From: Terricaulis sp.
GTDB taxonomy: Bacteria > Pseudomonadota > Alphaproteobacteria > Caulobacterales > Aquidulcibacteraceae
NCBI GenBank assembly: GCA_024707365.1
Contig: JANPZV010000005.1
Location: 744,001 to 808,000, forward strand
Reading direction: 5' to 3'
DNA: 64,000 nt
Below are positions 1 through 16,535 of this stretch, piece after piece; the first letter of the stretch is position 1; each line of letters opens with the position of its first letter. Under the pieces are notes generated by a model. That model was not told the origin of the DNA, ran no database searches, and saw only the letters and a program-made list of their open reading frames with translations. A program made the position numbers and the translations under genes.

Positions 1-1
1 T

Positions 2-372
2 TATCTACGCTACGGCGACAACATCTATCACCGCGCTGACGGCGCGATGGAATATACGCAAGAGTACTCATTCCACAGTTTACCGGGGGCGCGCTTTCTC
101 GCTCAAACCTGGAACGCGACACAGGTACAAGCGAGCGCGTTCTGATCGGGCACGAGTTTGCATATTGGGGTCGCAGCGGCATCAAGCTTCCACCGGAGTT
201 GAAAGCCTTCGAAATACGTGGCCCAGGGCATAAGTGCCGCTTCGATGACGAGCAAGTGGCTGCGTTTATGGCGTGGCTGGCGACGCATCCTGAACGAGGA
301 ATCATTGGCGAGCCGGCGCACTGGCAGTTTTTGAAAAAGAAGCGCCGCCGTCGCTTAAAAACTCATTTCTGA
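2..372 (+). CDS. Nmad2-like nucleotide-modification-associated protein, 5' end outside window
   Basis: Only the C-terminal part is present. It reads in frame 2 (YGDNIYHR, then YSFHSLPG) up to a run of five G at 85-89 and continues in frame 1 (TSERVLIGHEFAYWG, IKLPPELKAF, FMAWLATHP, GEPAHW) to the TGA at 370-372. The order of these blocks, YGDNIY, FHS, VLI..F.YWG.SG and a closing P.HW, matches my recollection of the Nmad2 family, which was predicted from neighbourhoods of DNA-base hypermodification enzymes. No biochemical activity is established for it as far as I know. The switch of frame inside a G run is best read as a sequencing indel. The MazG gene starts 12 bases downstream on the same strand, so the two probably form one transcription unit. 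The family call comes from pattern memory, not a search. Confidence 0.55.
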
Positions 373-384
373 AAGCCCATCGAG

Positions 385-2067
385 ATGAAGGTCTCGGCTT
401 ATACCGCATTTGTGCGTCGTACGGACCAATTTCAGACCGCCGAGCGAGACGAGCGATTGGCCGTCGCCGTCTATGGCCTCGTAGGCGAGATCGGCTCGCT
501 TACTTCAGCGATTAAGAAGAAGCTATTGGCCGAGGCGGGAGCTAGCGCGTGGGATGAGCCAAACGAAGAGATTGTCGAAGAGCTAGGAGATGCGATCTGG
601 TACGGCACCTTGCTTGCTCTCGTGCACAACGATCCGCGTCCCATAAACATTCTTAAGAGCGACATTCGCCTCCTGAAAGCGGAAATTGGTGGTGATAGTG
701 AGCGCGCCCAAAAGATTCGCGCGGCGCTTGACCCAACTAAGAAGGATCTCTTTCTGCAAGCTGCAGAAAAGTTTCCACGCACCGAGAGCATGAGGTTTTC
801 TCACTATCAGGAGCTCGCGTTCCTCACGGCGCGCACGCGGGAGCGTGTGTTGTTGGAGGTGTGTCTGGCGGTCTTGGGTCAACTCGGCGCTGAGTTGCTA
901 CGCACACGCATGCCGGAGATAGAACTCACTCTTAACAAGAATATTGCGGATAGGCCGGTAAATGTAATCTTGGGAGAGGTGGCTTGGCACCTCGCTGCGG
1001 TTGCCAGTCTCTTCCGCCTGTCGCTAGATGAAGTGCTCGCCAAAAACGTAGAAAAGGTTGCGTTTCGCGCAGACCGTAGCGATCGAACTCCCCTGCATGA
1101 CGAGAGTAACTTAGAGTCGGAGCGCTTTCCTCGCGTGTTCGAAATCTCATTCGTGACCGTGTCACCGAAGCGGCTTGGCGACAAAATACTTTCCCGTTCC
1201 CGCATGTTCATGGATGGCCGCCAACTAGGCGACGAACTCACGGACAATTCTCGCGAGGATGACGGCTATCGTTTTCACGATGTTTTTCACTTGGCGAACG
1301 TCGCGCACCTCGGGTGGTCACCCGTGGTTCGGAAGCTCATGGGGCGGAAGCGGAAGAGCCTGGGCGACGAAACGGATGAGGTCGAGGACGGCGCGCGCGC
1401 GCAGATTGTTGAGGAGCTAGTCCTCAAGGCCATCCACAGCGAGGGTGTTCGTCTAGCTCGTGATACGGCGCGGTGCGGACCGGAAACGCCTATGCGCACC
1501 TTCGCCGATCGGAAGGCAATCACCTTCCGCTTTCTGAAGAGCTTACAGGGCTTCGTTGAAGGTCTTGAGGTTCGAAAGAATGCAGCATGGGAATGGGAAG
1601 ACGCAATTATCGAGGGCGCTGATGCGTACTACCAGTTGCGGCTCCATGGACAAGGAACAGTCCGGGTTGATCTAAACGAACGCAAACTTACTTTTTCACC
1701 CGACGTGTGGCTCTCTATTCGCGGTTTGTCGGTGGGTTTGGGCAACGCAAGTGTCTCTTCGTCTGCGGAGATCGACACAGCGCACCTAACCGCGGAAGAA
1801 CAGGCGGCATGCGATGGCGATGCGTCGAAGTTGCGTCGAGTACTCGCCGCAAAGTGCGCGATACTCCGTTCGTTGGGGCTAGGCGAGCCGTCTTCATCCC
1901 AACAGCTTGACATCAAATTGCGCGGGAACGACGTAAGTGTGCATGCTCGATCGGAGGTACAGAAGCGGATGTGGGCGATCGGTGCCCTCTCATTCCAACT
2001 GGCCTTTAGCGAGGACACCACTGGCGGCATCCTTTGCTCCGCTCTGGCGGTAACGAGTGTCGCCTAA
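385..2067 (+). CDS. Multi-domain MazG-like nucleotide pyrophosphohydrolase
   Basis: This 560-residue protein appears to hold several MazG-type all-alpha modules. Residues 1-85 carry GEIGSL (34-39) and EELGDAIWY (65-73), the paired acidic motifs that bind magnesium in MazG pyrophosphohydrolases. Residues 136-240 hold a second, more degenerate copy with GEVAWHLAA (197-205) and LSLDEVLAKNVEKV. Residues 250-420 contain EDDGYRFHDVFH (291-302) and EDGARAQIVEEL (334-345), again pairs of acidic motifs. MazG enzymes cleave NTPs or dNTPs to the monophosphate. Residues 448-560 do not look like MazG and recall an AcpS-type fold (see findings). The gene lies 12 bases after the Nmad2-like gene. Its TAA shares bases with the stop of the convergent gene at 2064-3110. 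A role in tuning a nucleotide pool for, or against, modified DNA is inference. Confidence 0.7.
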   Translation: MKVSAYTAFVRRTDQFQTAERDERLAVAVYGLVGEIGSLTSAIKKKLLAEAGASAWDEPNEEIVEELGDAIWYGTLLALVHNDPRPINILKSDIRLLKAEIGGDSERAQKIRAALDPTKKDLFLQAAEKFPRTESMRFSHYQELAFLTARTRERVLLEVCLAVLGQLGAELLRTRMPEIELTLNKNIADRPVNVILGEVAWHLAAVASLFRLSLDEVLAKNVEKVAFRADRSDRTPLHDESNLESERFPRVFEISFVTVSPKRLGDKILSRSRMFMDGRQLGDELTDNSREDDGYRFHDVFHLANVAHLGWSPVVRKLMGRKRKSLGDETDEVEDGARAQIVEELVLKAIHSEGVRLARDTARCGPETPMRTFADRKAITFRFLKSLQGFVEGLEVRKNAAWEWEDAIIEGADAYYQLRLHGQGTVRVDLNERKLTFSPDVWLSIRGLSVGLGNASVSSSAEIDTAHLTAEEQAACDGDASKLRRVLAAKCAILRSLGLGEPSSSQQLDIKLRGNDVSVHARSEVQKRMWAIGALSFQLAFSEDTTGGILCSALAVTSVA

Positions 2068-3110
2068 GCTGCCTCGTTGATAGCATCGTTGATGCCCCAC
2101 TTTGGCGGATACCAAGGCGAAGGCAAGCGCATGGCGGGTGCGAATTTTTGCTTGATCCGCGTGCGACCAGCGGTGCCTGACACCTCCGGGAAAGCTACGC
2201 GCGCGTACTTCGAGATCTCGCAGAATATGTTCTGACAATCGATCAACTGAAGTGGCCGGCCCCACAGCGTCTCGAAGGCGATTCCGGATTCCTGAAAATG
2301 GCGCGCTTGATTTTCGTACATGTACCGAATGATGCTCTCAGGCGTCACACCAGTCGTATCGACAAAGCACTTGCTTATTCCGTCCAGCGCGCCCGGGCCG
2401 GCGACGACGAACTCATCCTCACCAAATGCGAGCATAGGAGTGTAGTTCAAATCGGTGACGAATTGGTAGGCGAGGAATGGCCCAATTGATGGGGCGCCTA
2501 GCAATAATGCGTAGGCTTGTTGCATCGACGTGCATTCTGCGAGCCGTTCCGGGAATGCGTCACGCATTAGAGACTCAAGCAGGCGCAGATGGTTTTGGTG
2601 CTTCAGCCGATATCCGAATGGCGCCGACGGCATGATGTATGCAGCAGAGTATATGCGTGCGCCGCCAGCCATCCGGGTGGTAAGGGCAACATCCAGTTTC
2701 TCAAAGTCAAACTCTTCCCAAACAAGAGTGCCGATTGCCTCTTCCAAAAACTCCCAAGTCTCAATCTTGTTAAAAAGCTTAAAGAGCAGCGTTCTGAAAA
2801 AGACGTTCGATGCGTCACTTGGAAGGTCGTCGCGATAGATGACCCGTCGAATTAGATACTGACTAACTCGGTCGGAGGCACGGTAAGCATTCGTGAACTT
2901 AAACGTCGCCAGGACGGGATCGGTTGTGAGCCGGCCATTGTCGCCACGCAAACGGCGAAAGAAGATTTTCTGCCGCTCAGCCGCGAAGCGCCAATACGCG
3001 TCAAATACCGGTGTCGTCGACAAGTCTCGTCGACCTACGCGAATGCTGGTCACGCCAGTGCGTTCGGAAACACCGAAATCGAGCGACAAGTTAGTTTCGT
3101 GGCCGTCCAT
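2064..3110 (-). CDS. 5-hmdU DNA kinase helical-domain/thymine-pyrophosphorylase-related protein
   Basis: The 348-residue protein has an N-terminal signature YWRFAAERQKIFFRR (39-53), TTDPVL (62-67), KFTNAYRASDRVSQYLI (71-87). This matches my memory of the helical domain named after 5-hydroxymethyluracil DNA kinases and the related alpha-glutamyl/putrescinyl-thymine pyrophosphorylase clades. These were predicted to act on hypermodified thymine in phage and bacterial DNA. I see no Walker A motif, so this protein carries the helical domain without a P-loop kinase. It is convergent with the MazG gene and shares stop-codon bases at 2064-2067. Association with Nmad2-like and MazG-like genes fits a base-modification cassette, but substrate and reaction are unknown. 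The family call is from recall and would need a profile search. Confidence 0.6.
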   Translation of the reverse strand: MDGHETNLSLDFGVSERTGVTSIRVGRRDLSTTPVFDAYWRFAAERQKIFFRRLRGDNGRLTTDPVLATFKFTNAYRASDRVSQYLIRRVIYRDDLPSDASNVFFRTLLFKLFNKIETWEFLEEAIGTLVWEEFDFEKLDVALTTRMAGGARIYSAAYIMPSAPFGYRLKHQNHLRLLESLMRDAFPERLAECTSMQQAYALLLGAPSIGPFLAYQFVTDLNYTPMLAFGEDEFVVAGPGALDGISKCFVDTTGVTPESIIRYMYENQARHFQESGIAFETLWGRPLQLIDCQNIFCEISKYARVAFPEVSGTAGRTRIKQKFAPAMRLPSPWYPPKWGINDAINEAA

Positions 3111-3206: not shown

Positions 3207-5196
3207 CTATCCACGCCCGCCGATGTCGAGGCCCAGCACCTTGGTGATCTCTTTCTCGGCGCCGCGACCATACTTGAAGTCGAAGTTCACGCCTTTGACC
3301 TGTCCCGCGACGACTTGATTGAGCGCGCGGTCCATCTCCGCCCGCCACGGCGCAAGCGTTGCGGTGCGGTCATGCTCAATCAGCGCGAAGCTCTGTTCGG
3401 CGAGATGGACGCGGCCCGTGTAGAGCCCATGCACACGCTCGCCTTCGCGCGCGAAATGCGCCACGCGCCCGGTATCGCGCTCGATGCGGTCGCGAAGAGC
3501 GTCCTGCTCAAGCGAAGTTAGGCTATCGCGCCAGCCGGACATGGCTTGGAACCCGTCTGGGCCGCGCTCGCCCAAGCCGAGCTTCTCAAGCGTCTCTTCC
3601 CGCTGCTTCCAGGCTTTGCCGATCTCAGCGCCAAAGCCTTCGCCGCGCATCTGGCTTCTGTCTTCGCGGCCATCCGCGACGCGGTCGAGCCAAGTTGGCC
3701 CGCGATACTCGGCCTGCCGTGCCAACGCGTGCGGATCAACCAGCGTCACGCGCGCGCTTTCGCGTCCGCCCCGCCCTTCGCGCATCGCCACTTGGGTAGG
3801 GTAGTCGTGGGGCAGATAGAACGTGCCGTCGCGCTCGCGGCTGACCACGCCATCGCGCCGGAGCGCTTCCAGCCTGCGTTCGTGCATTTCTATGTAGTTC
3901 GCGCGATCGGGTGGGCCGCGCTTGGCGATGCAGCGCCGCCGAATAGGTGAGATCGTTTTCTTGCGCGATTTCCCAGATGGTGCGGTCGGACGCTTTCAGG
4001 CCCGGCGTGGCGCGCTCGATCTCGACAATGGCGCCGCGCTCGACGCCGCTTAGGCTGCGCAGATCTTCGGGACCGGCCACGCGCGCCGTCCAGAATCTAC
4101 CGTCAATGCCTTCCACGCCGATAAGTTGTGGTCCTCGCGCGTCCTCGCCCAGCCGCTCAAAGCCAACCAGGCGTCCGGTGACGCACTGGCTCGAATGCGC
4201 CGCTTCCAGTTCACGCGTGCGCTCAGGTTCGAGCCCGCGTTGCTCCTGCGCCAGTAACCGCGCGGTGGCGCGCTCGCGGTCGCGCCGGTCGCCCAGCCGG
4301 ATAAGTTTCTCCTCAAGCTCGGCATCGAGCCTCCACACGCCCGGGCGAGCCGGTTCAGCCAAGCCCAGCTCTTCCAGCCGGTTGAGGCGTTGCACCAGCC
4401 GAGCGGCGCGCACGCCATCGTCGGGCAGCGCGCTCATCGGGATCTCCTGGCCGCGCGAGCGTGCGACGAGTTCGCGGTCAAGCTCGGTGAGGCGATCCTG
4501 CTTCATCGCCCGATCGGCGCGGTCGGGTTCTAAGCGCGGCCCCAGCAGTTCGGTCGCGAGGCCTTCGGCGCGCTCGCGGAAACCGTGGGAAACATAAGCA
4601 CGCGGGATGACCAGGTCGCGGCCGTCTGCCCGGACGCCCCGCATCAGCAAATGGACGTGGGCATGGCCGGTGTCGTGATGCTCCGCCGCGATCCAGTCGA
4701 TGCGGGTATCGAGGTCCGATTCCACCGTCCGCATCAGGTCGCGCGTGTAGTCCTTAAGGTCGTCGATTGCCGCACCGTGCTCGGGCGAGATGATCACCCG
4801 GAAGTGATGCCGGTCGCCCTCGCAGCGCTCGACGAAGGCAGCGCCGTCCGCGCGGTCGAGTTCGTGATCGAACACCTGCACCGGATCGCCGTCGCGGCCG
4901 GCGCCGTCGCGTTCGACGTAAAGCGTGTGCCGCATGAGCGACCCCGCGCCGCCCGCCGCCTTCGCGTGGACCTTGGGGTGTATCTTCACAATCACGCGCT
5001 GGTTGCCCGAGAGCCGCTCGTGCTTCAGTTTGACGACGCCAGCGCCGCGGCTCCGATTGTACCAGGCCGCGCGCGTGCGCGCGGCAACACGCTTGGAGCC
5101 CGCGGCGGACGGCGGGCGAAATATCGAGCTGGGGTCGGGAGTGCGTTTCGCGCGACGCCGGCTGACATCGCCTTCGAATTTGTCTTCGTCTTCCAT
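3207..5196 (-). CDS. VirD2-like relaxase/mobilization nuclease with DUF3363-type C-terminus, frameshifted
   Basis: A conjugative relaxase nicks DNA at oriT and covalently attaches to the transferred strand. The N-terminal half has a run of basic residues, then KHERLSGNQRVIVKIHP, MRHTLYVERDG, HHFRVIISPE and the metal-binding histidine triad in HDTGHAHVHLLMRG, all typical of VirD2/RP4-type P relaxases. The C-terminal half (MHERRLEALRRDG, YLPHDYPTQVA) matches the DUF3363 region. The two halves lie in different frames; the break falls between about 3885 and 3945. The proposed start at 5196 (MEDEDKFEG) is a choice; the open frame continues to 5316. With the integrase at 7345 this marks an integrative mobilisable element. 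No coupling protein or type IV secretion genes are visible, so transfer would need a helper element or genes left of the window. Confidence 0.8.
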
Positions 5197-5399
5197 CGCG
5201 TCGCGCCTTCTTAGCAGCGCAAAGCGGCTCTCTTCACCTTGCCGCACTCTGCGGCGGCGCACCTCGTGGTGCCGTGGAAAAAAAGATGTGCAGACGAGCC
5301 GCTGTGCATCCAGCACTGCGGCGCATTCTATCTTGCTGCCTACCCTTCGTCTTTTTCTGCGTTATGCCTGATGTTTCCTCGTTATGCTGACCATCGAAG

Positions 5400-7344: not shown

Positions 7345-8684
7345 TTACGCATTGCTGCGAGCCCCCTCGGGAGAGAGAGGCAGCGAAAGCTGGTCCCCGT
7401 CGGCGGCGAAGTTCTGGGGCCGAGGGGCTGCTGGTTGGGTGGCGCGTTTGCCCACGAACCGTGTCGCCACATCTGACGCTACCGCGCGGGCACCGGCGTC
7501 GGAGGGGTGAGCGTAGCGTTCGGTAGTGGAAGTCTTCGTATGCCCGAGCGCGCGCCCTACGTGATAGAGCGAGGCACCACCTTCAACCGCGAAGGTCGCG
7601 AAGCTGTGCCGTAGATCGTGCAACCTCACATCAGCAATGCCCGCTAGCACGCGGACCTTGTCCCAGGCGCGATTGACGCCGACGAGCGGCTGATCGCCCA
7701 CGGATGAAGGGAAGACGTGCTCTGCGCGCCGCTTCACGGCCTGCAAGATCTCCAGCGCCGGCATTGAGAGCGCGATTGTGCGCGAACGATTGAGCGCGCC
7801 CATCTTGGTGCGGACCGGCGGCAAGACGATGCGTGCGCGATCGAAGTCGACTTCGGACCAGCGCAGAGCGACGATTTCGTTGCGGCGGGGCCTGTCAGCA
7901 TGATGAGCCGGAATATGTCGGCGAAATCTCTGGTGATGACAGAGGCCGCTTGCGCCTCGGCGATCATTGTCCAAAGCCGGCTTGCTTCTTCCTCGGTCAG
8001 CGCCCGCTCGCGCATTTGATCGCGATACTTCTGGATCTTACCGCAGAGGTTCTGGTCAAGAATTTCGTGCCGAACCGCCCAACCCATCATTGTTGAAAGC
8101 ACCCGCATGGCGCGGGCGGCTGCACCAGTCCCGCCTTTGACGACGGCGTGCTGCTTGCCGCTCTTGGTTCTAACGGTGACCGAGGTTTTGCCGTTCGCGA
8201 CCTGCGCTTGGAATTGCGATAGGTCCGATAAGGTCAGCTCGCGGGCGATGCGCTTGCCGAGCAGGGGCTCAATGTGACGCTTGTAATTATACTGATCGAC
8301 CTTCCATGAGCTTTCGCGTTTGAGCGGCTTGTCGATCCGGCCCTCGACGAAATAGCGCTCGAACAGCTCTTTGACGGTGCCGCTTCTGAGCTTGGTCTCG
8401 GTCTTCGTGGCTTGGGGGTCTTCGCCATGATTGGCCTGGTAGAGCGCTTCCTTGGCTTTGCTGCGGGCGGTGTCGGGCGTCCAGGGCGAGCCATGCTCGC
8501 CAATCGTCAGCCAGCGCTGGCGACCCTGGTAGCGATACTTGAGGCAATAAGATTTGCGCCCGGTCGGCGTGATGCGTAGCGCAAAGCCTCGGACGTCCGT
8601 ATCCCAGATGCGGAGCTCGCCTTCTTTAGGCGCTGCGGTCGCGTCAATCAGGCGAAGCGTGATACGAGCACGGATGCCGTCCAT
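7345..8684 (-). CDS. Tyrosine-type site-specific integrase, frameshifted
   Basis: The N-terminal part (LRLIDATAAPKEGELRIWD, FALRITPTGRKSYCLKYRY, GRQRWLTIG) is the arm-binding domain typical of P4-like integrases. A SAM-like core-binding domain follows (FERYFVEGRI, YKRHIEPLLGKRIA). The catalytic domain has Arg in RRNEIVALRWSEVD, HDLRHSFAT (H-x-x-R), GHTKTSTTERYAH with the histidine and the nucleophilic tyrosine. The frame breaks at a G4 run at 7887-7890, between MLTG and RRNEIVALRW; a one-base change restores a protein of about 446 residues. The gene is 220 bases from the tRNA-Gly 3' fragment at 8905, the usual position of an integrase next to its attachment site. Confidence 0.9.
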
Positions 8685-8904: not shown

Positions 8905-8949
8905 TTGCCAAGGTTGGGGTCGTGAGTTCAGATCTCATCGCCCGCTCCA
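8905..8949 (+). other. Candidate attachment site: 3' half of tRNA-Gly(GCC)
   Basis: The 45 bases read as the anticodon loop TTGCCAA (8905-8911), the 3' strand of the anticodon stem, the variable loop, a T arm whose stem GTGAG/CTCAT still pairs, the acceptor strand CGCCCGC, the discriminator T and CCA. No 5' half precedes it. Integrases commonly target tRNA 3' halves, and the element restores the tRNA at its far end, so this is read as the original 3' half displaced to the right end of the island. The T loop reads TTCAGAT instead of the usual TTCGAAT, consistent with loss of function. Confidence 0.7.
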
Positions 8950-8999
8950 AGGGAGCTCAATAAATCAATGGCCTATGCGCGCTTGGCGTGGTGGCGGAT

Positions 9000-10214: not shown

Positions 10215-11778
10215 CTACGCGCGGCCCGCGAGCGCGGCGGCGAGGCGGCGGGCGAGGGCGATGATGGTGAGCGTCGGGTTGGCTTGCCCGCCCGAAGCGA
10301 ACACGCAGCTTGAAGCGATCCAGAGATTTTCGACATCATGGGCGCGGCATTGCGCGTTCACAACGCCGGCGCTGGGATCTGCGCTCATCGCGGCGCCGCC
10401 CAATTGATGATAGCCGTCGCGCGCGGCGCTGGCGATGGCGGCGCGTGTTTCGGCTCGGCCGGCGTCAAAGCGCAGCGCGCCAAGGCCGCTGGCGCGCAAG
10501 TCCGCATCGAGCGCCTCGTGCGCGGCCAAAACACTCTCGAAATCAGCATCGTTCATGTGAAAATCGATAGCGAGCTTAGGCAGGCCGAGTGAGTCGCGCG
10601 CATCATGGAGGCGCACGCGATTGTGGGCGTTGCGCATTTGCTCGCCATGATAACACAGCCGCCACGCGCCGCTTGCATCGGCGATGAGGTCAACCGCGCC
10701 AGGATAGCCGCCGCTCAGCTTGGCGTAGAGCAATTGAAACACAGCGCCCGAAAGGCCAACCGCCGCCGAGATCGGCGCGCGCGCGAACTTTCGGATGTGT
10801 AAACCCAGCTGGCCATTTTGGCCCGCCAGCGCGGCGAGCCGTGTCGCCAATGCGCGCGCAATCGCGGCGACATTGTTGCGCGCCTCACTCGGGTTATCGA
10901 GCCAGAAGGCGATATTGCCGAAAGGCTCGGCGCGTAGGGCGGCGTCGGTGGGGCGCAGCCGCCGCCGCGCAAACACGCCGCGCTCAAGCATGCGGCAGGC
11001 GAAAGCTTGCGCGCCGGCTGGATCGGTGAGCGTGATGGCGCTGATCGAGCCGGTCAAATGGCCCATATAGCCACGCCCCAGCGGGCCATCAGCGCCGCCA
11101 AACAGCGCCGGTTGCGTGTGTTGCGCCAGCAAAAGCAGGCGCAGCACGCCAAGGCCGCCGCAAGCCAGCACAATCTGGATTGGCGCGCACGCTTTTTTCG
11201 GCGTTGTCGATGCGCACGTTGAGGCGGGTCACGCGGCCGGTGTCGATGTCGAGCCCGGTGACGCGCGCATGCCGCACGATGACGGGGCCTGCTTTCGCGC
11301 GGAGGCGCGCGCGCCAGCGCCGCGCCATATTGCGCTCAGGCCCCCAGGTTTCGTCGCGCAGCGCGTCAAAGCGCGCCAGCTTTTCAAATCCAGGCGGGGG
11401 CGGGGATTCGCTGACGCCGTGTGCGCCGAGAAATGCCGCGGCTTTCTCCCACCAAGGGGCCATGTCTGCTTCGGTGATTGGCCAGCTGCGGAAATCTGCT
11501 GAATCAAGCGGCGCGCAGCGGCCGCCCCACCAATGCGACGTGCCGCCGAGCGCCGCGGCGGCGACGATTGGGATTGGATCGTGCCAGTCGGGATCGCTTA
11601 TTTCGGCGGCGAGAATGTCAGGCGCGCCAGGAACGGGATTGAGCCCGCCAGCTTCAAGCACGAGTGTTTTAAGGCCTGCATCATGGCAATCGAGCGCGCA
11701 CGCCAAGCCTGCGGGGCCAGCGCCGACAATGCAGACATCATACGCGTGATCCAGCGCGGCGGACGAAGTAAGCGGCAA
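10215..11778 (-). CDS. GMC-family FAD-dependent oxidoreductase, frameshifted
   Basis: The N-terminus has the FAD-binding motif CIVGAGPAGLACALDCHDAG and LEAGG, then GGTSHWWGGRC, typical of GMC oxidoreductases. The C-terminus has DGYHQLGGAAMS and the second FAD motif with NLWIASSCVFASGGQANPT. The frames meet at a run of six T at 11193-11198. Correcting it joins DNAEK to IQIVLACGGLGVLRLLL and gives a protein of about 520 residues. The open frame extends to 11844, but those codons lie in a dispersed repeat (11790-11832), so a TTG start at 11778 is proposed. Substrate unknown; the family oxidises alcohols and sugars. Confidence 0.75.
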
Positions 11779-11789
11779 TTTTTCACGCC

Positions 11790-11855
11790 TTAAAGCAACG
11801 GACTTTAAATTCGCCTCAGTTCGATGGCGGGCGCCGTGTCGCATTTAAGGCCCGA
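11790..11855. repeat. Dispersed intergenic repeat, family B, copy 1
   Basis: Positions 11790-11832 are identical, base for base, to 44161-44203. A second block, GTCGCATTTAAGGCCCGACG near 11840, matches the right end of the other copy near 44304 with one change. Copy 1 therefore looks like a shorter version that lacks about 100 internal bases. It lies between the GMC gene start and the intergenic space to 11964. Confidence 0.7.
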
Positions 11856-12324: not shown

Positions 12325-12363
12325 ACGCCGACATCCTAAAAGCGGTGTTAGCAATGCGGGCTC

Positions 12364-13208
12364 TCATTGCCGTAGCCGAATGAGCCCTTCCTGCGCGGCG
12401 CTGGCCACCAGCACGCCATCCTCCCGATAGAGCGCGCCGCGGTTAAATCCGCGCGCGCCAGAGGCGGAGGGGCTGTCCAGCACGTAGAGGTGCCAGCGGT
12501 GAAAATTGGTGGGGCGGTGCAGCCAAAGGATATGATCCAGGCTGGCTGTCTGCACGCCGGAGGTCCAGGTATGGCCGTGCGGGCGCAGCGCCGCGCCAAG
12601 CAGGGCGTAGTCCGAGGCGTAAGCCAGCAGCGCCTGATTGAGCCGCACATCATCGCCAAGATCGCGCGCGCGCGCAGCCACACCATATGATGCGGCGGCG
12701 CCGGTTTTGGATCGCGCACGGCGACGGGATCGACCGGGCGCACCTCAATCGGCCGATCCCGAATTTTCGCAAGCCATTCGGGCTTATCGGCGAAGGCCTC
12801 GCGCCAGCGCTCGACATCATCTTGCACGCTCTCGGGCGGCGGCGCGGGCGGCATGGCGTCCTGATGGTCAAAGCCGCTTTCCTGCACTTGGAAAGAGCAG
12901 GCCATGTTGAAAATCTGCTCACCCTTTTTGATGGCGATGACGCGGCGCGTGGCGAAGCTCTTGCCATCGCGCGAGCGTTCGACCTGATAAAGCACCGGGA
13001 TACGCCCATCGCCCGGACGGATGAAATAGCTCTGCAGTGAATGGCAGATGAGGGCGTCGACGGTTTTGTAGGCGGCGGTCAACGCCTGAGCGACAACCTG
13101 GCCGCCAAAGATGCGCCCCTCGTCTTCGGGCGGGCTTACCCCGCGAAACAGGTTCACGTCGATCTGCTCAAGATCGAGCAGGCGCGTCATTTCATCCATA
13201 ATGGCCAT
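12364..13208 (-). CDS. tesB: Acyl-CoA thioesterase II, frameshifted
   Basis: TesB hydrolyses medium- and long-chain acyl-CoA through a double hotdog fold. Visible blocks are LFRGVSPPEDEGRIFGGQVV, ALICHSLQSYFIRPGD and RRVIAIKKGEQIFNMACSFQ in the first hotdog, and DVRLNQALLAYASDYALL, SLDHILWLHRP and YREDGVLVASAAQEGLIR in the second. The catalytic aspartate is expected in the ASDYALL block. A frame break at a GC-dinucleotide repeat near 12661-12673 separates the two halves. The length after repair, about 280 residues, is normal for the family. Confidence 0.9.
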
Positions 13209-13848: not shown

Positions 13849-14136
13849 ATGCAAAAGCCCACCTTCCCCGCTTTGACGGCCGAAGAGCTGGTCCGAACAG
13901 GCGAGGCTCTGTTCGGGGCGGGGTGGCGCAGCGCATTTGCGCAATTGCTGGCCGATGGCGATGAGGCTCTGATCCGCGCTGTGGAGGCGGGCCGCCAAGC
14001 TGCGCCTTTGCAGTGGCGTGAGCTGCTCATCGCGGCTTCCCAGGATGCCGCGCTACGGGCGATGGACGCCGCGAGCGCGCTGCTCTCGATCGAGCCGGTC
14101 GAGGAGCAGCCCGCTTATCGTGTCGCGGTCAATTAG
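13849..14136 (+). CDS. Hypothetical small protein
   Basis: A 95-residue protein, MQKPTFPALTAEELVRTGEA to the end VAVN, mostly helical and mildly acidic, with no signal peptide and no recognised motif. It is alone on the plus strand, convergent with the coiled-coil gene at 14154 with 17 bases between stops. The intact frame and its isolated position make it likely real. Confidence 0.55.
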   Translation: MQKPTFPALTAEELVRTGEALFGAGWRSAFAQLLADGDEALIRAVEAGRQAAPLQWRELLIAASQDAALRAMDAASALLSIEPVEEQPAYRVAVN

Positions 14137-14153
14137 AGCCTTCGGATGATGCT

Positions 14154-16535
14154 TTAGGCGCTGCGCGAGATCGTATCTTCGCCCTCGGCGTAGCGTTTCT
14201 CAATCAGCTCAATGGTGTTGGCCATCTGCTCAAGCGCCCGCACGCTTGAGCGTTCGACATCGCCGATGCGTGTTTCAATGCGGCGGCGCAGCGCATCGAA
14301 TTCGGCGGCCACGTCGCGCTGCTCAAGCTCGGTCAGGCGCGCTTCGATGGCGCGCGCGATCAGCAATTCATCACCAGTGAGCACGGCCGTTTCGGTTCGC
14401 TCGATCTGGTGCAAACGCAGCTCGTTCTCCGCCAGGAAATGCGCGATCTCGGCGCGCAAGGCTTCAAGCGCATCGGTGTGGCGCTGATCCATGGATCTGA
14501 TGCGCGCGGCGATTTCCTCCGCGGCGGCGAGGGCGTTGTGCTGGGCCTCTTCCTCGAGCCGGCTCATGCGCTCATCCAGTTGGACGGCGGCGTCCTCGTT
14601 TTGCGCGGCGACGCGCGCCAGCGTGCGCGATACGTCCTGGCTGCGCTCAGCCGCGGCGGTGAGCTGGGCGTTGTGATCTTCGAGCCGCGCGTTAAGCGCC
14701 GCGAACTGCGCCGGCGCATCGGTTTCCTCGATCCGTGCGGAGATCAGGCCGATCTCTTTGGCCAGCGCATTCAGCGCTTCTTCGGTGCTTGAATCGGCGG
14801 CGCCTTGCTCAAGCTGGCCGAGCCGGGCGTTCATATCCTCCGCAAGCGCTGCGAGCGCGCGCTGGGTGCTTGCATCCTCGGCGTTGCGTTCGAGCCGATC
14901 CAGACGCGCATCCGCGTCAGTGTTTGTGGCGGCCTGGGCGAGCAGCGCCTTATCCACCTGCGTCAGCCAACCTTCGACCGTATCCTGGCGCTGGGCCACG
15001 CGGTCAACGCCTGCTTGCGCGCGCTTGAGCGTTTCTTCATGGCGCGCGGTTTGGGCCGTGTTGTTGCTCACGATGTCATGCGCCAGCTTTTGCAGCGAGG
15101 CGAAAACGCTGGCTTCGACACGCTCGATGTTTGCCGCGTTGGCGTGTGCGCCGGCGGCGGCGGCTTCCGCGTCGCGATCAAGGCGCGCGATCAGATCGTC
15201 GATGCGCGCGCGCACATCGCCCTCGAACGCATCCTGGCGCGCAACGATCACCAGTTCGGAATCGCTCAAGCTCGCTTTTGAGTCTTCGCGCAGCGCTTCG
15301 ATGTCGAGCAGCGCGTCATTGAGCGCGTGATCGACACGGCTGATGTGCTGGGCGATCTGGTTTTGGCGCTCGCCCAGCGCAGCGGCGGCTGTGGCGGCGT
15401 CCTGGCGCGCGCGCGCCAGATCGGCGGCCAGCGCTGAATCGGCGGCGCGCAATTGGGCTGCGGTTTCTTCGACGGCCATCTGCGCGGCGTCCTCAATCCC
15501 ATTGAGGCGGGCGCTCAGCTGTTCGGTGGCGCGGTGGGCGGCGTGCTGCTGATCGTGCACGCGGTCGGCCAGGGCCTCGATCCGCTCCACGGCGTCAACG
15601 AACGCGCCGTGCACGACGGCGCGGGTCTCCTCGGCCTGGTCGGCGAGGGCTTGTTCCATCGCGGCGCGGGATTGGCGCAGCGCCTCAATCGCGCGCTGCG
15701 CGGCGGCTTCGGCCTGATCGGCGGCGTCGTCCGCATCGGCGCGCATCGCCTCACGCGCGGCGCTGAGCTGGCGGGCGTTTTCTTGCGAGAGCGCGTTGAA
15801 ATCCTGAGTGAACGTCTGGCGCAGCGCTTCCTGCGCGGCGGCCAAGCGGGCGTCCGTCTGTGCGGAGAGCGCCCGCATATCCTTGCTCGCCGCCTCAAAG
15901 CGGCGTGCGTTTTCGGCGGAAAACTCTTCAAAATCCTGCGCTAAGGCGCGTGTCAGCGCCTCCTGGGCGGTGGCCAGGCGTGCGCCGGTCGCGTCGGCGG
16001 CGTAGGCGATGGATTCGACCGATTGAAGATGCGCCTCCAGCGCCTCGCAGCGGTCGAGCAGGCTGTGGCGGGCTTCCGCGCCGCTATCGGCGAGCGCCCC
16101 GGCGGCCTGTTCGGCGGCGGCGAGGCGCTTGCGCAGCATGGCGACATCGCTCTGCAGCTCAGTGAGCGCTGTGGCGCTGTCTTCGGCCAGGGCGCCGGTT
16201 TCGTCGAGCTGGGCTGAAAAGCTGAGCACGGTGGAATCGAGCGCCTTGAGCGCCCCATCGAGCCCGCCGAGCGAAGCGGTAAGCTGCCGCTCAAGCGCCT
16301 CAACCCGATGGCGGAAGGCGTTATTTTCGCGGGTGGGGCGGGGGGCGGGATAAGCCGGCTCCGGCTCCGCCTCGGGCGGCGCGCCTTCTGGCGCGGCGGC
16401 AAGGCCCGCCTCGCCGGCCAGCACCGCGGTCAGAAAGTCGGAAAGGCTGAGCCCTTGGCGCTCAGCCTCTTCGAGCGCCGCTTGGCGCGCTTCGGCGTCC
16501 ACGCCGCGCAGCACCCAGGTATTGTCGCTTGTCAT
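14154..16535 (-). CDS. Long coiled-coil protein with PodJ-type N-terminal motif
   Basis: The 793-residue protein starts MTSDNTWVLRGVDAEARQAA, followed by LEEAERQGLSLSDFLTAVL. This resembles the N-terminal motif (W..GVD..AR..A...A...G.SL..WL) of PodJ-like and related alphaproteobacterial polarity or cell-envelope proteins. Residues from about 75 to the end are almost entirely heptad-like Ala/Glu/Arg/Gln helix, with repeated LD-RL-LE and AAQEAL units suggesting internal duplication. No membrane segment, Sel1 repeats or peptidoglycan-binding domain follow, unlike full-length PodJ. The start at 16535 is preferred because codons upstream to 16682 lack coiled-coil character. A scaffolding role at the pole or division site is inference. 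Confidence 0.65.
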   Translation of the reverse strand: MTSDNTWVLRGVDAEARQAALEEAERQGLSLSDFLTAVLAGEAGLAAAPEGAPPEAEPEPAYPAPRPTRENNAFRHRVEALERQLTASLGGLDGALKALDSTVLSFSAQLDETGALAEDSATALTELQSDVAMLRKRLAAAEQAAGALADSGAEARHSLLDRCEALEAHLQSVESIAYAADATGARLATAQEALTRALAQDFEEFSAENARRFEAASKDMRALSAQTDARLAAAQEALRQTFTQDFNALSQENARQLSAAREAMRADADDAADQAEAAAQRAIEALRQSRAAMEQALADQAEETRAVVHGAFVDAVERIEALADRVHDQQHAAHRATEQLSARLNGIEDAAQMAVEETAAQLRAADSALAADLARARQDAATAAAALGERQNQIAQHISRVDHALNDALLDIEALREDSKASLSDSELVIVARQDAFEGDVRARIDDLIARLDRDAEAAAAGAHANAANIERVEASVFASLQKLAHDIVSNNTAQTARHEETLKRAQAGVDRVAQRQDTVEGWLTQVDKALLAQAATNTDADARLDRLERNAEDASTQRALAALAEDMNARLGQLEQGAADSSTEEALNALAKEIGLISARIEETDAPAQFAALNARLEDHNAQLTAAAERSQDVSRTLARVAAQNEDAAVQLDERMSRLEEEAQHNALAAAEEIAARIRSMDQRHTDALEALRAEIAHFLAENELRLHQIERTETAVLTGDELLIARAIEARLTELEQRDVAAEFDALRRRIETRIGDVERSSVRALEQMANTIELIEKRYAEGEDTISRSA

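Follow-up and report, generated by a model that had tools for sequence, protein, structure and literature searches.

Comparison of sequences across loci shows a recurring core with exchangeable partners, formed by a MazG-MazG_C protein and a helical protein (HMUDK_hel) of the 5-hmdU DNA kinase/thymine pyrophosphorylase family. In the DNA analysed here, the same kind of comparison shows Nmad2 and a TIR-like protein as the partners of this core, with a pair of the PD-lambda-2 type next to them. This DNA, a stretch of 64,000 nucleotides from Terricaulis sp. (assembly GCA_024707365.1, contig JANPZV010000005.1, positions 744,001 to 808,000), is referred to below as the window.

Organisation of the cassette and its island

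A Pfam profile search placed all three families proposed by a first-pass annotation at window 2-3110, namely Nmad2 (PF18753, 1.4e-44), MazG_C (PF18722, 8.6e-58, 195.5 bits against a cut-off of 29.7) and HMUDK_hel (PF18723, 2.6e-106, 355.5 bits against a cut-off of 25, profile positions 1-280 of 281). The earlier observation was confirmed, and its interpretation was partly supported. Its guess of further genes left of position 1 also proved right: a TIR-like gene and PD-lambda-2 A/B were found there, and since they adjoin the trio, the idea that the trio is a complete unit was rejected. The features are as follows, in window positions unless prefixed.

G000:C5:727472-727519, left attachment repeat, from inside tRNA-Gly to 3 bases beyond its end
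within G000:C5:741681-743476, minus strand, PD-lambda-2 A/B (B 1.6e-105, A 2.5e-6)
G000:C5:743310-743741, plus strand, TIR-like gene preceding Nmad2, left of the window (PADLOC ThsB 1e-8)
1..372, plus strand, 3' part of the Nmad2 gene (Pfam PF18753 on both frames)
385..2067, plus strand, 560-aa multi-domain MazG protein (Pfam MazG_C and a sub-threshold MazG match; AlphaFold2 pLDDT 92.0)
391..780, plus strand, N-terminal MazG-like helical domain (alignment A8; helices in the model)
790..1074, plus strand, second MazG-like helical domain (alignment A2; motif scan)
1087..1701, plus strand, MazG_C domain (Pfam; alignment A8)
1717..2058, plus strand, C-terminal AcpS-related part (Foldseek; sequence alignment of fused proteins)
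2064..3110, minus strand, 348-aa HMUDK_hel protein (Pfam PF18723; AlphaFold2 pLDDT 92.7)
3207..5316, minus strand, relaxase (DUF3363), split over two frames (Pfam)
7345..8684, minus strand, tyrosine integrase, split over two frames (Pfam Arm-DNA-bind_3, Phage_integrase)
8905..8952, no strand, right attachment repeat (48-bp direct repeat, 46/48 identical)

The cassette lies on a 25.4-kb island that is inserted in tRNA-Gly and bounded by the direct repeat. The presence of a relaxase gene within it agrees with the earlier description of the island as mobilisable.

Co-occurrence and exchange of partners

In a sample of 385 genomes, Nmad2 was found in 13, MazG_C in 13 and HMUDK_hel in 8; Nmad2 adjoined MazG_C in 8 genomes, and the trio was present in 3. 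Under a hypergeometric model that ignores kinship, joint presence gave p values of 1.1e-12 for Nmad2 and MazG_C (9/385 genomes; 2.2e-11 with the window's own genome omitted), 1.1e-8 for MazG_C and HMUDK_hel (6/385; 2.4e-7) and 5e-5 for Nmad2 and HMUDK_hel (4/385; 8e-4). A survey of this kind had been named beforehand as the test that could refute the first-pass annotation, and the trio was found to recur elsewhere. The families also occurred apart: MazG_C was missing from 4 of the 13 Nmad2 genomes and lay on a separate contig in a fifth, and 2 of the 8 HMUDK_hel genomes had no MazG_C.

The 15 MazG_C loci of these genomes lay beside HMUDK_hel (6 loci), beside a uracil-DNA-glycosylase-like (UDG-like) gene (8 loci) or at a contig end (1 locus). 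In a larger survey of 103 MazG_C loci, many of them only ~3.5 kb long, which was seeded with HMUDK_hel and MazG_C and whose proportions are therefore not natural frequencies, the partner was HMUDK_hel in 81, a UDG-like protein in 20 and both in 0. A TIR-Nmad2 module was found at 27 of these loci and a thymidylate-synthase-like/acyl-carrier module at 71, with both at 1; same-genome loci were merged from a hand-made list, L085/L127 are apparently one contig counted twice, and near-identical loci from different records (L043/L044, L074/L076) were retained. Both UDG-like proteins scanned matched PF03167 (3.4e-8 and 5.4e-6), and the phosphopantetheine serine of the carrier-like protein of the alternative module was kept in 32/32.

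On a 92-row HMUDK_hel tree, from which 15 rows were left out (long branches, same-genome repeats and loci excluded before), the TIR-Nmad2 label required 8 changes, at least 7 of them on starred branches, indicating that the link to TIR-Nmad2 recurs. An earlier 101-row tree, with labels taken from open frames only, forced 9 changes; the lower figure is used here.

The MazG and HMUDK_hel proteins

Within the 560-aa protein, the Pfam MazG match was weak (8.7e-4, 19.9 bits, under the curated cut-off of 22), and residues E35, E66 and D69 of the N-terminal MazG-like domain were invariant across the 30 sequences of alignment A8. The same alignment showed H298, D299, H302, K322, R323, D335, R338 and E344 of MazG_C to be invariant, while the acidic motif of the second MazG-like domain is degenerate in the window protein. 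A Foldseek search with the whole MazG model matched AcpS chains (best E 4.6e-3, probability 1.00, TM-score by target 0.55-0.68); these matches carry no range, and the position of the AcpS-like part was set from the sequence alignment. The window protein alone reached only E 0.0086 against the AcpS profile. The C-terminal part is related to holo-ACP synthase (AcpS), with the catalytic Asp/Glu/His lost in 9/9 fused proteins.

The HMUDK_hel gene runs tail to tail with the MazG gene, and their stops overlap. No P-loop kinase domain was found in the HMUDK_hel protein by Pfam, the helical match beginning at residue 33 with no other match. Its model matched the phage SP10 5-hmdU DNA kinase in BFVD (1.4e-15), and further the phiW-14 helical protein, thymine pyrophosphorylases and, weakly, amino acid:DNA transferases. 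In the PDB, the top structural matches were OGG/AlkA-type HhH DNA glycosylases, below significance (E 0.22, probability 0.63), and a profile search of PDB chains returned three aquaporins (E 0.39-0.67).

The reading of the cassette as a phage gene set was weakened, not rejected. No match to the MazG protein was found in 50,697 phage records (tblastn, E 1e-5). The closest phage HMUDK_hel was 36% identical among the 30 of 487 records listed, and relatives in genome contigs reached 65% among the best 80 of 551. Phages may nevertheless use the same genes, given that PHROG families match both proteins (phrog_229 for MazG_C, 2.8e-29; phrog_2396 for HMUDK_hel, 2.7e-54) and that 14 viral contigs hold an HMUDK_hel relative, the best match covering most of the query at 54% identity; two of these contigs have a shorter match at 61% identity.

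The TIR-like protein and the PD-lambda-2 pair

In the TIR-like protein the N-terminal motif usual for such proteins is absent. Its clade does not conserve the catalytic Glu column, in which the protein of this cassette has Glu. The eroded TIR was also found in four other clade members, all with open frames. Among TIRs adjoining Nmad2, a near-terminal cysteine was kept in 31/31 rows, 28 of them distinct (the same-genome repeats are L113/L135, L115/L137 and L116/L141). Three further TIRs do not adjoin Nmad2 by the distance rule; two have a cysteine among their 9 C-terminal residues, and the third, L018 (Bradyrhizobium betae), has one tenth from the end. The TIR partner of relatives was ThsB_TIR in 2/2 scanned (L079 and L153), L079 additionally carrying a TIR-SLOG protein, and TIR-SLOG, patatin and other TIR genes were found as neighbours of relatives.

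PD-lambda-2 B lay beside the cassette in 8/13 members of the window's HMUDK_hel clade, with A seen in 7, and the pair came in two gene orders. PD-lambda-2-B-like genes are common (90/385 genomes at E<=1e-3), and only two of the five strongest matches adjoin a cassette. The pair might be a toxin-antitoxin that stabilises the island, with the nucleotide genes as cargo that buffers dNTP pools, either the element's or the host's. MazG-type enzymes are cleaners of nucleotide pools. Published PD-lambda-2 B is toxic and is rescued by A, according to the available text of PMC9519451. However, PD-lambda-2 was matched at a minority of 104 loci, and partner choice in the 103-locus survey looks constrained; we consider this explanation quite unlikely.

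The interrupted Nmad2 gene

The Nmad2 gene starts at G000:C5:743729, 271 bases left of the window, and its reading frame is interrupted near window 95-105. Frame A, which enters the window from the left and ends at 145, matched PF18753 at profile positions 3-117 with 152.5 bits, and frame B, at 43-372, matched positions 119-197 (1.3e-12, 48.1 bits), both above the curated cut-off of 26.1 bits. A break special to Nmad2 was rejected, as five further genes, located in the window or immediately to its left (integrase, relaxase, GMC oxidoreductase, acyl-CoA thioesterase and HsdR), likewise fall into two frames each. An assembly error is therefore the likeliest cause; should the break be genuine, the system may no longer function in this genome.

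The broken frame, the eroded TIR-like protein, the dead AcpS-like part and the degenerate second MazG domain could together mark a formerly active cassette that was pseudogenised here. Yet the loss of AcpS-like catalytic residues in all nine fused relatives and the eroded TIR of four clade members with open frames indicate that the erosion is shared, not local, and the splitting of five other genes in the same assembly likewise speaks against decay, which we rate as very unlikely.

Proposed function

The first-pass annotation had offered self-marking of the element's DNA and action against phage as two functional readings, of which the second fits better and the first has become the weaker. 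Under the first, the cassette would make or complete a thymine modification in island or host DNA, as restriction protection or a self mark. This would suit the fold that the HMUDK_hel protein shares with phage hypermodification enzymes, the fusion of the L028 relative to a thymidylate-kinase domain, the many relatives that adjoin a gene annotated as thymidylate synthase, and the relatives on plasmids (34 records for MazG, 10 of them examined; 21 for HMUDK_hel, 10 of them examined). However, no thymidylate-synthase-like match was found around the cassette (locus L002), the genome's only PF00303 thymidylate synthase is located away from it on contig C6, and a kinase domain is missing from the HMUDK_hel protein; the TIR, PD-lambda-2 and the UDG-like swap suit attack or sensing better. 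PF00303 may miss the thymidylate-synthase-like family of the relatives, since one such protein scanned had no Pfam match. Overall, self-marking appears unlikely.

Action against phage is favoured by the TIR and PD-lambda-2 partners, the substitution of a UDG-like protein for HMUDK_hel, and the protective E. coli operons with related domains in the available text of PMC13092281. We propose, as roughly an even bet, that the integrated island, which has a relaxase gene, carries an anti-phage cassette whose targets are modified thymine nucleotides or DNA. MazG would hydrolyse pyrimidine dNTPs, possibly modified ones, and the HMUDK_hel protein would flip out and bind, or act on, thymine-type modified bases in phage DNA or nucleotides, with 5-hydroxymethyluracil derivatives among the candidate targets. 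Nmad2 and the TIR-like protein would convert this event into a response, the latter probably as a non-catalytic adaptor, since its motifs are eroded, and the PD-lambda-2 pair may serve as a regulator or toxin. The outcome would be protection, whether abortive or direct, against phages whose thymine metabolism is modified or altered.

In a further version of immunity, which we regard as highly improbable, the TIR or carrier protein would be coupled covalently to phage DNA or nucleotides via a thiol arm. Both exchangeable modules would supply a small protein that bears a thiol on a flexible arm: the phosphopantetheine of the carrier-like protein or, in the TIR, its conserved near-terminal cysteine. 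The HMUDK_hel or UDG-type core enzyme would link this thiol either to a thymine-type base, at its exocyclic carbon, or to the site from which the base was removed.

Nmad2, MazG_C, HMUDK_hel and the UDG-like family, all poorly understood, are joined here in one modular system with apparent exchange rules. With this cassette one can test concretely whether the reading or removal of modified thymine serves bacteria as a defence, and the near-terminal TIR cysteine is a single mutable residue for asking how the modules work.

Comparison with known systems

Searches of the open-licence PMC literature, one for a TIR C-terminal cysteine included, yielded among the matches listed no paper recognised as describing the TIR-Nmad2-MazG_C-HMUDK_hel organisation. 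The earlier statement that no such system had been described holds only partly, as the DefensePredictor work (PMC13092281, Science 2026) already predicts, in its available text, defence roles for aGPT-Pplase, MazG, MazG-C and NMAD domains, with UDG in a legend. That work reports 42/94 tested E. coli transcriptional units as protective against phage, and its systems have related nucleotide-modification domains in common with the window cassette. The same text does not assign these domains to shared operons and holds 0 mentions of TIR and 0 of PD-lambda-2, both of which lie beside the window cassette; the gene orders are in its figures, and the overlap may be larger than the text tells. A DNA-level search for E. 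coli relatives found none.

The phage thymidine hypermodification enzymes compared, 5-hmdU DNA kinase and alpha-glutamyl/putrescinyl thymine pyrophosphorylase, share fold and sequence family with the window HMUDK_hel protein, whereas the latter has no kinase domain, a bacterial context, and MazG_C and TIR partners. The phage pathway includes a base-forming enzyme of the thymidylate-synthase family, for which no match was found in or near the window cassette.

Thoeris (ThsB TIR and ThsA) resembles the relatives in that their scanned TIR partners are ThsB_TIR. However, a catalytic ThsB was not found at this cassette, where the TIR is eroded despite its PADLOC match, and no ThsA match was found beside the cassette in the 10 stretches scanned (in one, among the best 25 of 118 families). 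To our knowledge, MazG_C, HMUDK_hel and Nmad2 are not parts of Thoeris.

PD-lambda-2, of which the A and B components adjoin the window cassette, is described in the available text of PMC9519451 as a three-gene system that acts against lambda and needs component C for defence. Identity of the cassette with BRIGADE was rejected, as BRIGADE is built on YprA helicases and, in the available text of PMC12458937, reported only from halophilic archaea. Brig1, according to the available text of PMC11078745, is a UDG-superfamily glycosylase that acts alone and excises the modified phage base alpha-glucosyl-hydroxymethylcytosine; it shares this superfamily with the putative UDG-like partner that replaces HMUDK_hel in related loci.

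Results

The gene set was found, on reading the sequence left of the window, to begin left of position 1, in a 3.4-Mb genome of eight contigs. The first-pass annotation had described a trio of Nmad2, MazG-like and HMUDK_hel genes (HMUDK_hel being the helical domain family of 5-hmdU DNA kinases and thymine pyrophosphorylases) and had expected more genes to the left. The Nmad2, MazG_C and HMUDK_hel genes were all present, and a TIR-like gene and a PD-lambda-2-type pair were found beyond the edge; the cassette is thus a larger unit than the trio. Several of these domains were reportedly defined by Iyer et al. in 2013. The genes, in order, are:

Left of window, minus strand: PD-lambda-2-type pair, HigB-like A (PADLOC 2.5e-6) and Xre-ImmA/IrrE B (PADLOC 1.6e-105)
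Left of window, plus strand: TIR-like gene (PADLOC ThsB 1e-8)
Meeting near window 95-105: Nmad2, family match in two frames
Window 385-2067: MazG protein, convergent with the HMUDK_hel gene
Window 2064-3110: HMUDK_hel protein, convergent with the MazG gene and overlapping it at the stop

The TIR-like gene had no Pfam ThsB_TIR match; ThsB_TIR matches were seen away from the cassette, in large open frames of the same contig (151745-152071 and 1754642-1754875). PADLOC at E 0.1 gave no match for the Nmad2, MazG and HMUDK_hel proteins, and NCBIfam gave none in the six stretches scanned. Distant phage families were found in PHROGs for MazG_C (phrog_229, 2.8e-29) and HMUDK_hel (phrog_2396, 2.7e-54).

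The frame break in Nmad2 could reflect decay or an assembly error. The integrase, relaxase, GMC oxidoreductase, acyl-CoA thioesterase and HsdR genes were also frame-split (window 3207-5316, 7345-8684, 10215-11844 and 12348-13208; 21-3384 of L002, the window's own cassette locus). Such ordinary genes split over two frames suggest many small indel errors in the draft assembly, and because these five genes are split likewise, two of them outside the island, we infer that an error in the assembly, not decay, broke the Nmad2 frame.

The island is about 25.4 kb long. A 48-bp stretch starting inside a tRNA-Gly, some 16.5 kb before the left edge of the window, is repeated at window 8905-8952 (46/48 identical), adjoining the integrase, and G+C is 59.0% in the island versus 63.1% and 64.5% in its flanks. 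Its cargo includes restriction genes and a relaxase; the term mobilisable is based on the relaxase gene, itself split in the assembly. The part of the island left of the window (contig positions 730021-736106 and 736048-737818) holds type I restriction genes, of which HsdR was assigned by Pfam and the others by eye. It also holds an AAA-type ATPase gene, split as well, that matches several PADLOC defence-ATPase models (best about 1e-14).

Recurrence was surveyed in one fixed set of 385 genomes, all from the window's class. Nmad2 and MazG_C were each found in 13 of them and HMUDK_hel in 8, a genome-level overlap far above chance by a statistic that ignores kinship. In 8 of the 13 Nmad2 genomes no more than 2 kb separated Nmad2 from MazG_C, and the trio lay together in three genomes (the window's own, G150 and G154). 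Linkage was incomplete: four Nmad2 genomes lacked MazG_C and one had it on a different contig, four MazG_C genomes lacked Nmad2, and two HMUDK_hel genomes lacked MazG_C. Within the window's own family, MazG_C occurred in 4 of 60 genomes. A scan of one genome per species (84,980 species) yielded at least 551 HMUDK_hel relatives. The best 80 of these, together with 14 viral contigs, 9 plasmid loci and the window, gave 104 loci, and MazG_C was found in 72 of them.

The partner of the MazG protein proved exchangeable. On plasmids, a gene annotated as uracil-DNA glycosylase (UDG) adjoined the MazG gene in place of HMUDK_hel in all 10 matches inspected (of 34), and the two such proteins scanned matched Pfam UDG (3.4e-8 and 5.4e-6). 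Among 103 MazG_C loci, the partner was HMUDK_hel in 81, UDG-like in 20, unseen in 2 and never both; one unseen partner (L117, genome G398) was UDG-like once the sequence was extended, and the other locus (L116, genome G286) lies at a contig end. The accompanying module was TIR-Nmad2 in 27 loci and thymidylate-synthase-like/carrier in 71; 1 locus had both modules, and in 4 neither was seen. Each core type was found with each module type (HMUDK_hel: 17 TIR-Nmad2, 62 synthase-like/carrier; UDG-like: 8 and 9), in counts where whole-genome-search loci often span only about 3.5 kb, most loci were found via HMUDK_hel, and L085 and L127 seem to be one contig counted twice. In the 385-genome set, which was drawn regardless of neighbours, the partner was HMUDK_hel at 6 of the 15 MazG_C loci and UDG-like at 8, and the remaining locus stood at a contig end. 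Genomes G156 and G244 each carried both core kinds on different contigs. Under another counting rule, 85 HMUDK_hel loci comprised 62 with synthase-like/carrier only, 15 with TIR-Nmad2 only, 3 with both and 5 with neither; the three with both (L022, L029 and L041) argue against strict exclusion of the modules. Two long frames were also seen. In a Gemmataceae MAG (L084, 9902-11881), HMUDK_hel and MazG_C read as a single frame of 659 aa, which would support joint working if it is not an assembly slip; in an Afipia MAG (L019, 10985-13309), Nmad2 and the MazG protein read as a single frame of 774 aa, possibly a natural fusion or an assembly slip.

In HMUDK_hel trees, the window fell in a fully supported 13-member clade, 11 members of which had TIR-Nmad2. 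On the 92-row tree with corrected labels, TIR-Nmad2 requires 8 changes, 7 of them forced by well-supported branches, so the association has been gained or lost repeatedly. Eight clade members (L002, L018, L019, L020, L021, L024, L027 and the G150 locus) had PD-lambda-2 B next to the cassette, accompanied by A in all but the G150 locus, in both divergent and co-directed orders. In L023 and L031 an HTH/ImmA plus synthase-like module took its place, and L025, L026 and L032 gave no PD-lambda-2 match. PD-lambda-2-B-like genes occurred in 90 of the 385 genomes, with a cassette beside only 2 of the 5 strongest matches, which weakens any tight link.

The TIR partners were aligned (n = 14). The usual TIR motifs were present in nine. 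In the other five, those of the window clade, the N-terminal motif was absent and the residues in the catalytic column were E (window), D, D, A and L. All 14 had a cysteine at or near the C terminus. A cysteine in the last 9 residues was present in 31/31 TIR rows beside Nmad2 (28 distinct) and 2/3 other TIRs, against a background of 219/1892 ORFs of at least 120 aa; no paper among the literature matches listed used the phrase "C-terminal cysteine". Separately, a planctomycete cassette (L079) encodes a TIR-SLOG protein (13864-16446) and a second ThsB-type TIR (11033-11590), suggesting a Thoeris-like signalling link.

The commoner module typically runs carrier-like, HTH, ImmA/IrrE peptidase, thymidylate-synthase-like, core, AcpS and often dCTP deaminase; by clustering of the 104 loci, carrier was found in 31, HTH in 51, ImmA in 69, synthase-like in 68, AcpS in 42 and deaminase in 24. 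The labels "acyl carrier" and "thymidylate synthase" are those of the record annotation; the one carrier-like and the one synthase-like protein scanned had no Pfam match. The presumed phosphopantetheine serine was conserved in 32/32 carrier-like proteins and a cysteine in 65/65 aligned synthase-like proteins. At least one HMUDK_hel protein of this module (L028) bears a thymidylate-kinase domain, absent from the window protein, and relatives L022, L029, L030, L042 and L094 have metallophosphoesterase-like and second thymidylate-synthase genes. On a Gloeothece plasmid (L009, 114-1103), the gene immediately before HMUDK_hel encodes a patatin-like phospholipase with a CBASS effector annotation.

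The HMUDK_hel structure model (pLDDT 92.7) matched viral models of the phage SP10 5-hmdU DNA kinase (1.4e-15), thymine pyrophosphorylases and the phiW-14 helical protein; matches to amino acid:DNA transferases were weaker. Against the PDB, OGG- and AlkA-type DNA glycosylases topped the list, none significantly. The best PDB matches of the MazG protein model (pLDDT 92.0) were AcpS chains (best E 4.6e-3, probability 1.00), and sequence alignment placed the AcpS-like part at its C terminus. The Asp, Glu and His that we take to be catalytic were missing in 9/9 fused proteins; among stand-alone AcpS (14 aligned of 44), Asp and Glu were present in 14/14 and His in 12/14. Judged from these residues, the window-type MazG protein appears to retain, in dead form, a function that the commoner module encodes as a gene of its own, and the window type is probably derived.

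Discussion

Phage infection may bring in unusual thymine nucleotides or bases. MazG would hydrolyse such nucleotides, the HMUDK_hel or UDG-like protein would engage the base, and the module would signal or execute. As pyrophosphorylase-type and glycosylase-type families interchange, the point shared by both cores is suggested to be base engagement rather than one chemistry.

Among known systems, Brig1 shows that a glycosylase of the UDG superfamily can defend against a phage with a modified base (PMC11078745), and the DefensePredictor study gives phage protection by 42 of 94 cloned E. coli units (PMC13092281); PD-lambda-2 follows PMC9519451. Within the literature searched, what seems new is that two cores and two modules are exchanged, that PD-lambda-2 lies nearby, that the MazG protein has an apparently dead AcpS-like part and that the TIR partners have a cysteine close to the C terminus. 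The cassette is best read as a variant within a class of nucleotide-modification defence systems that is now emerging.
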